DNA of 64,000 nt from Elusimicrobiota bacterium (GTDB taxonomy: Bacteria; Elusimicrobiota; UBA8919), in assembly GCA_016928195.1 (NCBI GenBank), contig JAFGLF010000083.1, forward strand, positions 1 to 64,000, in the 5' to 3' direction. The notes under the pieces were generated by a model. It was not told where the DNA came from, made no database searches, and worked only from the letters and a program-made list of their open reading frames with translations. Shown in pieces: positions 27,815 to 62,470 of this stretch. Numbering within the stretch: the stretch's first letter is position 1; each line of letters begins with the position of its first letter. The translations under genes were made by a program, and so were the position numbers.

Positions 27815-27875
27815 GTCGCGAATTTCTTATTTGCGTATATTAGCGTTGTTTCTTCTATTCGCGTATATTCGCGTT
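27815..27875. repeat. CGCGAATA-type phrase repeat
   Basis: Repeated words such as AACGCTAATGGTCGCGAAT and TTCGCGTATATTCGCGTT fill the spacer between nfu and the following GT-C gene. Similar words occur at 32040-32090 and 32485-32540. Confidence 0.7.
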
Positions 27876-32039: not shown

Positions 32040-32090
32040 TCGGCAACGCTAATCATCGCGAATCTAACGCTAATAGTCGCGAATAAAGTC
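32040..32090. repeat. CGCGAAT-type phrase repeat
   Basis: AACGCTAATCATCGCGAAT followed by AACGCTAATAGTCGCGAAT: a direct repeat of about 19 bases with two differences, in the spacer upstream of gatC. Confidence 0.75.
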
Positions 32091-32100
32091 TAAATATAAA

Positions 32101-32490
32101 TTATAATGAATCAGTTCTAACTGTTTCGTAAATTCTTCGTTTAATCTGGATTTTCTCAGCGCCAAAATTCACAAGATACCCAAGTTTATACTTCGTACCA
32201 CGTAAATAATAATATAATTGTTTCTCAAATACTTTTGGCAACAGTAAAACAGATTTTATTTCAATAATTATTTTATCTTCAATAATAAAATCAGGCTGAT
32301 AAGTTCCAACTACTACTTTATTATATTGTATTGGTAGTTTCTTATTCTCAACAAATAAAATCTTATGTAATTTAAAATCAGCCGAAAGTGCTTTTTGATA
32401 TATTTGCTCTTTATGTGCAGGTCCTAATGTATTATATACTTTATAAAAACAACCTACTAATTTATATGACAAATCTTTATATAACACCAT
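32101..32490 (-). CDS. GxxExxY protein (PD-(D/E)xK nuclease-fold family)
   Basis: About 129 residues from MVLYKDLSYKLVG, which matches the usual start of the family. The frame continues 10 codons further up to 32520, but those codons (GNITRIDAN) are CGCGAATA phrase repeat. Core features are GPAHKEQIYQKAL (variant of G-x-x-E-x-x-Y), PDFIIEDKIIIEIKS (D ... E-x-K) and a C-terminal LVNFGAEKIQIKRR. It is intact, unlike the homologue at 25719. Function is unknown. Family members are scattered through uncultured genomes, often near repeats. Confidence 0.75.
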   Translation of the reverse strand: MVLYKDLSYKLVGCFYKVYNTLGPAHKEQIYQKALSADFKLHKILFVENKKLPIQYNKVVVGTYQPDFIIEDKIIIEIKSVLLLPKVFEKQLYYYLRGTKYKLGYLVNFGAEKIQIKRRIYETVRTDSL

Positions 32491-32542
32491 ATTCGCGTCT
32501 ATTCGCGTTATATTTCCCATTTGCGTGTATTCGCGTTTACTT

Positions 32543-44986: not shown

Positions 44987-45099
44987 TAGGTTTTCAAAAT
45001 TTTAAGAAGTTTTTAACTATTTAAAACATATCTATATATTTAAAAACATATTTAAAACATATTCAGCTAAAATCGTTCGACGGAAAAAACTGCATTTTT

Positions 45100-45226
45100 G
45101 ACTAATAGGGTTCGCATGTTGACTAATAAGGTTCGCATAGTTGACTAATAGGGTTCGCATGATTGACTAATAAGGTTCACATAGTTGACTAATAGGGTTC
45201 GCATGATTGACTAATAAGGTTCGCAT
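45100..45226. repeat. Six iterons of a replication origin
   Basis: Units begin with GACTAATA at 45100, 45121, 45143, 45165, 45187 and 45209 (21-22 base spacing, two helical turns). The unit is GACTAATARGGTTCGCAT with alternating AGGG and AAGG forms, and with alternating GATT/AGTT linkers. One unit has CAC for CGC. They lie between the Rep gene and the small DNA-binding protein gene, and form the likely vegetative origin. Confidence 0.88.
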
Positions 45227-59973: not shown

Positions 59974-62373
59974 TTATTTATTCTTAAACTCGAGCTCATC
60001 GACATATATCCTGCCTTTACCTCCGGAACCTGCACTTACGGCAAAATATATCTTCTTAACCTTACCGAGTTTCTCATCCCCTCCCCACAAATATTTAAGA
60101 TCACCGGGGCCGATAGCCAGTTTCTGCCATTTTTTACCTGACTTTATTTTTTCAAACTTTTTACCGAATACAGAACCGTCAGCATCTACAAGCTTAAACT
60201 CAAGATTGTTCTTAGAACCCTCTCTTTTAAAATAGAAACTGAAATTATAATCATTGTTAAGCGATATATCAAAATCCTTATCAACCTGTACCCATTGTTC
60301 GGTATCCGCAAGATTGTAATCAAGCATCAGCGCTTTGCCCTTCTTTCCTTCTACAGTAGACAGTTTGTATGTCGTTCCTTTCCAGCCGTCAATACTCCAT
60401 CTATCCGCAGATTCGCAATCATCCAAAATGCCTTCGGCACCGGCCTTCTTTTTCAGTTTTCCGATTTCCTCCGGCTGTATCCTTTCAAAAACCATATCAT
60501 CTATATATATAATACCTTCTTTATCGCCTGCTTTTGAATCTTCAAAACAAAAGAGAAATTTTTCCATATCAGTCCAGTCTGTTATCATTCCGCCGAAAAA
60601 CATAAGGGGGATTGTTTTCTTCTGCCACTCGGAACTGATACCGCTTAAATAGTAAACACCTGTACCGCCCTTGCCCCAGATTTCACATTTAAGCAGTTTA
60701 GGGAAACCGGCTGTCTCATCGCCTTTTACATAGAAAGAAATGGCATTATATACACTGATATCGTTTGACTTAAGTTTTGTCTGGCACCCGTTCCATGCAG
60801 GGTTAGAGGTATCAACGTCATACTGGATCTTGAGCGAATAACCTTTCTCTCCGTTTTTAACTTTAGTATCGTAAGTGAGTTGGCATCCTGTTGACCGGTC
60901 TTTGTTGTTGTATGTCCATGTCTCCCATTTTCCGCCAAGCATGTTCACAAATGTTTCATCGTTAAAACTGTCAACAACCATAGGTTTAACATTAGTATTC
61001 GGAGCAATTTCGGAAGTACCGGGTATTTTTATTTCCGAAGAATCTCTTTCTGCATACAGTTTTTTATACTGCCGCTTTTTTTCGTCATTATAAAATTTTA
61101 TAAGTTTTCCTGCTTTTTTTACATCAGGGTCCTTTTCCATAAGTTGCCAGATAATCCCGTCTTTAAGATGGTTTGCCAGTGTAAGAAAAACCATTGCCTG
61201 ATCAAGCAGAAGATATACCTCGGTAACCTTTCCTGTATCAAGGTCCACAGCATCACGGAAACCGAACTTATACGGCTTGCCGTCAATCATATATTCTTTT
61301 CTTGCACCCATACTTTCCAGACGCTTCAGGTTTTCTATAACTTTTCCGGGATAATAAATAACAGGAAGCACTCCGGCATGAGGTGTTACAACATTGGTTT
61401 TCAATGTACCCCAGCCAAGATAGCCGTCATCAGGCGACTCGGATGCGGACCAGCCCCAGACACCGGTGTTTATATCTTTTGCATACATCATCTGTGCATA
61501 TGCAAAATCCGCAGCCGACTTCCCGAGCACAGTCCAGCGTTCATCAATCCATATTCCCGGTATAAACTGCATGAACAATCCGCCGCCCATCCAGCCGGGC
61601 CTGTAGTAATCCAACCCGTAATGCCGTTCTGTTTCTTTATTGACAGAATCCCACGTTTCAACAGGAATATCTCCGGAACCTACGGCAAAAAAATATGACT
61701 GTCTCGCATCGGTACCGATTGAATTAAGATGCCATTTATCATTTATTTTTTTTGTTACCATATTATAGCCGCCATAAAGTATTTTTTCGCGTTTACCGTA
61801 TATTTTAGACCAGTCAACTTCATCCAAAAGACGGGTGCATCTTTCGGAAAGTCCAGGGAATCTCTGTCTTACCAGCATAAGCCCTGCTATGAGATTAGCG
61901 GAATCCAGAACAGATACCCATGGGTCATCTTTTGACGGAGTAAGATCGTTAACGCTGTGCCAGCACTGAGTAAAACCGTTCCATCTGTCAAGCTTCTCTA
62001 CAGAATCGATTATTTTAGATACCTTTTCATATGCGGATTTTTCGGTCTCAAATCCCATATCGGCAGCAGCTGCTATACATGCCATATACAGGCCTATGTT
62101 GGTTGCAGAAGTATTTTCTAATCTATTGGTATTGTCATAAGGCAGGCGGGTGGGAGTATTGCCCATATAATCTATACATCTGTATGTGTCCTCTGCAAGA
62201 GTATGCAGATATTTGCGGTCGGATTCAGCATAGAGACAAATGACAAATGACACATGACAGATGACAAATGACACATGACAGATGACAAATGACACATGAC
62301 AAATGACTCGCCTCGCTTCACGGGCGAAGCGGGCAGATGACAAATGACGAATTATAGATGTTTTTCTTTTCAC
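59974..62373 (-). CDS. GH144-like (glycoamylase-domain) secreted protein with two carbohydrate-binding-like modules
   Basis: 799 residues from a GTG start with a GAGG ribosome site. Residues about 60-420 form an alpha/alpha-toroid resembling the PF10091/GH144 group: WGWSASESPDDGYLGWG, VIYYPGKVIENLKRLESMG, KFGFRDAVDL and LLLDQAMVFL. GH144 enzymes cut beta-1,2-glucans, but this match is by motif only. Two carbohydrate-binding-like modules follow (starting VDSFNDETF and LDDCESADRW; the latter has DADGSVFGKKF and YLWGGDE). The signal peptide hydrophobic core is made of the repeat FVICHVS. Confidence 0.72.
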   Translation of the reverse strand: MKRKTSIIRHLSSARFAREARRVICHVSFVICHVSFVICHVSFVICLYAESDRKYLHTLAEDTYRCIDYMGNTPTRLPYDNTNRLENTSATNIGLYMACIAAAADMGFETEKSAYEKVSKIIDSVEKLDRWNGFTQCWHSVNDLTPSKDDPWVSVLDSANLIAGLMLVRQRFPGLSERCTRLLDEVDWSKIYGKREKILYGGYNMVTKKINDKWHLNSIGTDARQSYFFAVGSGDIPVETWDSVNKETERHYGLDYYRPGWMGGGLFMQFIPGIWIDERWTVLGKSAADFAYAQMMYAKDINTGVWGWSASESPDDGYLGWGTLKTNVVTPHAGVLPVIYYPGKVIENLKRLESMGARKEYMIDGKPYKFGFRDAVDLDTGKVTEVYLLLDQAMVFLTLANHLKDGIIWQLMEKDPDVKKAGKLIKFYNDEKKRQYKKLYAERDSSEIKIPGTSEIAPNTNVKPMVVDSFNDETFVNMLGGKWETWTYNNKDRSTGCQLTYDTKVKNGEKGYSLKIQYDVDTSNPAWNGCQTKLKSNDISVYNAISFYVKGDETAGFPKLLKCEIWGKGGTGVYYLSGISSEWQKKTIPLMFFGGMITDWTDMEKFLFCFEDSKAGDKEGIIYIDDMVFERIQPEEIGKLKKKAGAEGILDDCESADRWSIDGWKGTTYKLSTVEGKKGKALMLDYNLADTEQWVQVDKDFDISLNNDYNFSFYFKREGSKNNLEFKLVDADGSVFGKKFEKIKSGKKWQKLAIGPGDLKYLWGGDEKLGKVKKIYFAVSAGSGGKGRIYVDELEFKNK
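62235..62308. repeat. Heptamer tandem repeat encoding a signal peptide core
   Basis: Ten units of GACAAAT, GACACAT and GACAGAT in a 21-base higher order. Further degenerate units lie at 62336-62358, after a GC-rich palindrome (CGCTTC ... GAAGCG). On the minus strand it is translated as repeated FVICHVS in the N-terminus of the GH144-like protein. Confidence 0.88.
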
Positions 62374-62392
62374 ACGGGATACCTCATTTTAT

Positions 62393-62421
62393 ATTTTATT
62401 ACATTTACACACATTAGTCAA
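62393..62421 (-). promoter_or_regulatory. Sigma70-type promoter of the GH144-like gene
   Basis: Minus strand TTGACT, 17 bases, TAAAAT, ending 19 bases before the GTG start. Confidence 0.65.
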
Positions 62422-62456: not shown

Positions 62457-62470
62457 CCCGCCGTAGCGGG
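62457..62470 (-). terminator. Possible weak terminator
   Basis: Stem CCCGC-TACG-GCGGG (minus strand) followed by TATTTCTATTAT, downstream of the partial gene that ends at 62522. The stem is short and the T-run broken. Confidence 0.35.

Follow-up and report, generated by a model that had tools for sequence, protein, structure and literature searches.

Within the stretch of DNA analysed here (the window, 64,000 nucleotides), a gene for a glycoamylase-like enzyme carries a tandem array of heptamers. The array probably supplies a functional Sec-type signal peptide with its hydrophobic core, as one member of a class of such arrays that extends across at least three genera of the bacterial family and is made by a DNA process of the lineage. 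Judged from sequence, dozens of exported-type proteins in this bacterium and its relatives draw their signals from many different repeats of 7 or 8 bases. The anatomy of the arrays, their recurrence, the differences in unit between orthologues and their in-frame state are apparent in the genomes themselves. Those genomes are drafts, in which signal peptides were called by hydropathy, position and inspection, and genes by simple ORF calling.

The window locus

The gene is a minus-strand ORF of 799 amino acids (59974..62373), identified from the ORF list, from homologues and from a match to PF10091 (E=3e-16, profile search). Its N-terminus, MKRKTSIIRHLSSARFAREARRVICHVSFVICHVSFVICHVSFVICLYAESDRKYL, runs through MKRKTSII, RHLSSARFAREARR, VICHVSFVICHVSFVICHVSFVIC and LYA to ESDRKYLHTLAEDTY, and the stretches of DNA that encode it, all on the minus strand, follow in the same order. 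First come the GTG start and a native-looking n-region, MKRKTSII (62350..62373, read from the sequence). Next, also by reading, are two to three degenerate heptamers encoding RHLSS (62332..62349), which lie 5' of a genome-dispersed palindrome, CGCTTCGCCCGTGAAGCGAGGCG (62309..62331), 23 bp long with an 8-pair stem and encoding an Arg-rich stretch; the degenerate heptamers and the palindrome together encode RHLSSARFAREARR. The tandem array proper (62235..62307) is made of TGTCATT, TGTCATC and TGTCATG and encodes the hydrophobic core VICHVSFVICHVSFVICHVSFVIC. Its end is overlapped by the TGT of the c-region C-L-Y-A (TGTCTCTATGCT, 62227..62238), a motif common to many other signal peptides of the bacterial family, with a putative cleavage site after the A. 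The mature enzyme (59977..62226) follows, beginning ESDRKYLHTLAEDTY.

An earlier note on this DNA had placed a heptamer repeat within the minus-strand ORF, and the repeat is real. TRF reports 62235-62307 as 7 bp x 10.4 copies (87% match) or as 21 bp x 3.5 copies (96%), and a three-unit heptamer pattern, allowing up to three mismatches, has 11 matches in the window, all of them within 62235-62359, where shuffles lead one to expect 0.07. The FVICHVS-type repeats that were said to precede the mature enzyme are likewise there: the array encodes repeats of VICHVSF, in frame and at the position of a signal peptide. The 21-base period and the open frame remarked upon in the note are also seen, but they need no special explanation, since a 7-nt unit shifts the frame with each copy, all frames give the same cyclic peptide, and the peptide of any such unit repeats every 21 nt. 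The same holds for units of 8 nt: because neither 7 nor 8 is a multiple of 3, an array encodes the same peptide in all frames. In the case of TGTCATT, all three frames of the sense strand are open, each giving cyclic CHLSFVI, and the opposite strand of the heptamer has a stop every 21 nt.

The Arg/Lys-rich start that the note described is present, but its Arg part comes mostly from the palindrome CGCTTCGCCCGTGAAGCGAGGCG within the heptamers and not from the heptamers themselves; inserted inside the array, the palindrome extends the n-region with arginines. The n-region of the window protein is long, about 22 residues, and VICHVSF, which includes a His, is only moderately hydrophobic. Start, ribosome-binding site and promoter had been thought to be placed so as to include the repeat, and their positions agree with this. 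GAGG (62382..62385, read from the sequence) lies 8 nt 5' of the GTG, and upstream of it is a promoter-like TTGACT-17-TAAAAT (62393..62421), a consensus match only, at 10/12 positions, of a kind found 3 times against 1.6 expected. On the same strand, at window positions 62457-62470, a terminator-like hairpin, CCCGCTACGGCGGG, follows the gene upstream, and the enzyme gene is therefore probably transcribed from a promoter of its own.

Conservation begins at DRKYL in homologues from the same genome and from two further families of the phylum, and those aligned with the window protein carry ordinary short signal peptides where it has the repeat. The array therefore occupies the position of a signal peptide. 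Also, since homology to these relatives begins directly after the repeat, translation must start upstream of the array, which contradicts a start downstream of it. By inspection and hydropathy, the N-terminus has a basic n-region, a hydrophobic h-region and a small residue before the putative cleavage site, and the mature domain is conserved directly after that site. The reading of the window array as a signal peptide is well supported, and proteins led by such arrays would presumably be exported and cleaved.

The same heptamer in the source genome and elsewhere

The earlier note pictured one intergenic repeat captured as a signal peptide. This is too narrow, since the heptamer occurs in about 14 further signal peptides and related genera use other 7- and 8-mers, making the window locus one member of a class. 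An intergenic origin survives in part: the block of heptamers, palindrome and heptamers has near-identical intergenic copies (C20:2110, C20:5096 and C62:164278), which means that the ORF does hold a dispersed element.

The window heptamer forms arrays of three or more units at 13 places in the window's own genome (G000). In 11 of the 13, the array is the hydrophobic core of an N-terminus, e.g., MKKLYLTILLSVICHLSSAICLNA or MKIKKYIIVYLLTFVICHLSSVICLYGA; of the remaining two, one encodes a transmembrane stretch and the other is a spacer preceding a gene read as nusB. The 11 signal peptides span at least eight protein families, among them four related PorV/PorP-like outer-membrane proteins, a polysaccharide deacetylase, a CBM30 protein and a porin-like protein, and several of the proteins belong to no family. 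When one mismatch is allowed, the genome has about 37 clusters of the heptamer (96 matches, against 2 for the reversed pattern). By reading, about 15 of these clusters lie in signal peptides, lipoproteins included, and the others lie in transmembrane stretches, between genes, or as in-frame inserts in enzymes.

The enzymes with in-frame heptamers are HisH, ArgS, CobT, ThrB, MTHFS, PyrK and a family-2 glycosyltransferase. Alignment to solved structures places a 15-residue insert at the repeat of PyrK, a long unaligned stretch at that of MTHFS and a probable insert at that of ThrB, and little or no added length at the repeats of HisH, CobT and ArgS. In-frame insertion of repeats into unrelated genes is thus seen within this one genome, as in PyrK and MTHFS. 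The right half of the palindrome (AGCGAGGCGAGTCA) has 16 matches in the genome, e.g., at C51:19661, C78:76654 and C85:17168. The palindrome family is often embedded in heptamers and in frame in genes, and one MTHFS gene seemingly has two or three copies. Other heptamer arrays lie in frame inside proteins of the same genome (L258:13813-13843, L262:5148-5183, L263:7445-7474 and L263:17866-17890); by reading, the four proteins look like D-Ala-D-Ala ligase, apolipoprotein N-acyltransferase, LpxB and YggS.

Among 341 genomes of the phylum, three units of the window heptamer were found in G000 and in no other, so the comparison of orthologues relied on other units. The cassette pattern (two heptamers plus tail) had no match in GTDB genomes outside the bacterium's own. 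Four-unit arrays of the heptamer in GTDB are, among the matches listed, common in Nostocales and scattered elsewhere, and 65/82 of those listed touch no ORF of at least 100 aa. Signal-peptide positions account for 11/13 of the arrays in the bacterium's own genome, as against 1/82 of the arrays listed from elsewhere (Fisher 1e-11). The single clear signal peptide among those 82 is in an Omnitrophota genome (L206:2340-2369, SVICHLSSVICYAED). Outside the family there is also, by reading, a heptamer-built signal peptide in genome G027 (L107:1501), on a TRAP DctP-like protein, AAYCLLFTVYCLLFTVCDLQA. The G027 and Omnitrophota cases suggest independent origins.

Other units, unit turnover and inverted arms

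In G000 and in other genomes of the same family (24:4 in G004, 10:2 in G006 and 7:1 in G007), DNA encoding C-L-Y-A shows enrichment relative to the reversed pattern; the ratio in G003 is 6:4, and G001, G002 and G005 have no such enrichment. Nearly every C-L-Y-A signal peptide inspected has a tandem array in its core, but of varying unit: TTTACAC, CCTATAC, ATTTTTC, ACTACTT, TCAACTG, GGACATT, and 8-mers such as CACTTACT. An array is present in 56/73 collected C-L-Y-type signal peptides (38 of period 7 and 18 of period 8; 0.15 in shuffles), a fraction that does not apply to signal peptides at large, because most of the 73 were found through the motif or the heptamer. Where an array immediately precedes a C-L-Y motif at the DNA level, it shares its frame with an upstream start in 55/58 cases, and this upkeep of the frame supports a function. 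A mobile cassette of heptamers plus C-L-Y-A tail was rejected as the main account: C-L-Y-A is enriched in G004, G006 and G007, which lack this heptamer, and it follows many different units.

Stretches sampled blind to the motif agree with this picture. In G004, 320 kb contain 56 arrays of period 7 and 28 of period 8, and in the stretches of G000 sampled for this census, 400 kb contain 11 of each, with all other periods at 0-7 in both genomes. A genome of another family has one array of period 7 and none of period 8 in 200 kb. In G004, 38/84 arrays fall in the first 150 nt of ORFs, which make up 10% of the DNA (p=2e-16), and 19 are intergenic; an array is present in 24/70 of the signal-peptide-like ORFs of that genome, as against 1/137 of the others (p=4e-12). 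The G000 sample, from which known loci were kept out, has 7/22 arrays in the first 150 nt of ORFs (p=0.018), and the association between array and signal peptide per ORF is not significant in that sample (p=0.12).

Orthologues whose mature parts are 58-87% identical mostly differ in their units. One example is an LptA/LptD-N-like protein (PF03968) with 59-87% identity among G000, G003, G004, G006 and G007, whose core is built of four units: TCTTACTC in G000, GGACATT in G003, ACTTACC in G006 and the TTCACTTA type in G004 and G007. G003 and G007 belong to the same genus, and their versions of the protein are 87% identical, yet one has a 7-mer and the other an 8-mer. Five further proteins were compared as pairs or trios 58-74% identical, and 4/5 have clearly different units; the fifth set has related ones, TTTTACA, TTTTAAC and TTTTACC. 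The unit thus turns over, but the repeat design and C-L-Y-A persist.

In G004, a purine-rich array often lies 5' of the pyrimidine-rich one and encodes the charged n-region (e.g., KNSKFKIQN or RWKDGKMERW). Read along the plus strand of the stretch, the purine arm precedes its partner in 14/14 same-period opposite-strand pairs of this genome, and the arms of one locus are nearer to being reverse complements than are arms taken across loci (mean distance 1.79 vs 2.93, p=5e-5). By eye, the intergenic arrays of G002 and G005 have a similar layout of inverted arms. These two genomes of a sister genus have another heptamer, TGTNTAC (loci L109-L136; 14 and 41 matches, control 0), whose arrays are mostly intergenic, often with inverted arms around a spacer of about 35 nt. 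In genome G152, the reversed control pattern of the phylum search matches 46 times, so that genus has an abundant heptamer of its own, of the GTYTACT type.

Explanations and known systems

The explanation we prefer is that a DNA process of the lineage would keep making tandem arrays whose units are 7 or 8 nt long and of nearly any sequence, probably through slippage or expansion together with local recombination. Wherever hydrophobic residues are called for, after a short basic n-region and ahead of the conserved C-L-Y-A cleavage region, selection would then keep the pyrimidine-rich strand. All three frames of a 7- or 8-nt unit encode one and the same cyclic heptapeptide or octapeptide, so any phase of the array would give an h-region, and the only requirement would be a total length that leaves the mature enzyme in frame. 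One 7- or 8-nt unit more or less would break that frame. Perhaps the arrays that the process of this family repeatedly writes, many of them as inverted pairs, even serve as a frame-blind source of entire, replaceable signal peptides, a bolder version that we find plausible but short of probable. The purine arm would then be the charged n-region and the pyrimidine arm the hydrophobic core, and orthologues would exchange repeat units, the mature protein and the C-L-Y-A cleavage region staying the same.

Tandem repeats with a pyrimidine-rich, non-triplet unit would be a simple route to new signal peptides: such a repeat encodes a hydrophobic peptide whichever frame is read, so that its expansion alone can supply a targeting signal. 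With many parallel cases in orthologues, both the turnover of signal peptides and the origin of bacterial repeats of 7-8 nt become directly testable. There is also a practical side. N-termini like VICHLSF or KLQMTNDK look like junk, and gene callers may trim or mis-start them, hiding secreted proteins.

Perhaps, instead, short elements of the inverted-arm or heptamer-palindrome kind insert into genes, and the copies that serve as signal peptides survive. The closer complementarity of arms within a locus (1.79 vs 2.93, p=5e-5), the dispersal of the palindrome (16 matches), the in-frame inserts in housekeeping enzymes such as PyrK and MTHFS, and the intergenic inverted-arm-like elements of G002 and G005 all fit such co-option. 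However, different genes have different units, and so do orthologues, which sets the arrays apart from copies of a single mobile sequence, and there is no inverted (purine) arm at the window locus; on balance this origin is unlikely. A known parallel is provided by the Rickettsia palindromic elements, in-frame repeat DNA found in unrelated coding genes, housekeeping genes included (PMC10969869). The arrays resemble them in their in-frame insertion into unrelated genes, some of them housekeeping genes, but the Rickettsia elements form families of about 150 bp with a conserved peptide, whereas here the unit varies with the gene and the signal peptide is preferred.

It is doubtful, too, that the arrays are a mutational side effect and nothing else, with slippage producing 7-8 nt arrays everywhere and signal peptides simply tolerating them. 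Arrays do also occur inside enzymes and between genes, periods 7 and 8 outnumber all others in G000 and G004, and the in-frame arrays of cytoplasmic HisH, ArgS, CobT, ThrB, MTHFS and PyrK mean that part of the pattern may reflect tolerance and not benefit. But intergenic DNA ought to be the more tolerant place, and in G004 the first 150 nt of ORFs hold 38 arrays as against 19 between genes. Also, 55/58 arrays keep the frame and most of the hydrophobic core is array-encoded, so that the arrays are at the least required in their present places. Tandem repeats of Borgs arise rapidly inside ORFs and are enriched in extracellular proteins, but their unit lengths in ORFs are all divisible by three and what they encode is mostly disordered regions (PMC9879509). 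The present arrays share with them a place within ORFs and a leaning to extracellular proteins, and differ in that units of 7 or 8 nt, not divisible by three, form hydrophobic cores.

The window array could also be a contingency locus, in which one heptamer more or fewer puts the enzyme into another frame and so acts as an on/off switch. In Neisseria opa, a (CTCTT)n coding repeat in the leader peptide is known to switch (PMC3899988, PMC5354566), and this repeat is the nearest precedent: there as here, a tandem unit that is not a whole number of codons long lies between the start and the mature part and encodes part of the signal peptide. The units within the window array are, moreover, nearly identical (96% at period 21). 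Free-running switches, however, would leave many arrays out of frame, and with 55/58 in frame, no clear out-of-frame alleles like those of opa were seen and frequent switching of the opa type is not evident. One array gene encodes the LptA/LptD-like LPS transport protein, a poor candidate for switching off. We regard such a switch as distinctly improbable, although changes in unit may or may not ever switch genes. In other respects as well the systems differ, opa having one 5-nt unit in one adhesin family, as against many 7- and 8-nt units in dozens of genes, many families and three genera, and the window gene being a PF10091 glycoamylase and not a member of the Opa outer-membrane family. An assembly artefact or misplaced start codon is hardly credible. 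Tandem repeats do tend to be misassembled, and this genome is a draft of 87 contigs with an estimated contamination of 6%; but the design is found again in at least five genomes from three genera, and homology begins immediately after the array.

Signal peptides built from arrays, the reading preferred here, would also set this lineage apart from other bacteria known for such repeats. Heptameric repeats in cyanobacteria, Xanthomonas and Beggiatoaceae are mainly non-coding (PMC4692102, PMC4679880). Those of the present genome resemble the cyanobacterial type in being dispersed and tandem (about 37 clusters), in having a palindrome of about 23-27 nt embedded in them, and in the TGTCATT unit itself, which is present in Nostocales; but here they make signal peptides and in-frame inserts, with 11/13 at signal-peptide positions. 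Elhai et al. reportedly described, in 2008, small dispersed repeats of Nostoc embedded in heptamers. A literature search covering few subscription journals found no published description of heptamer-built signal peptides.

Other repeats are present in the window. At 45098-45226 there are about six copies of a 22-bp tandem repeat, TTGACTAATAAGGTTCGCATAG, alternating as a 44-bp unit. Short repeats around ATTCGCGT / AACGCTAATAATCGCGAATC lie at 27828-27874, 32045-32084 and 32490-32508; they occur also near the palindromes at L282 and L283 and possibly represent a second dispersed element.
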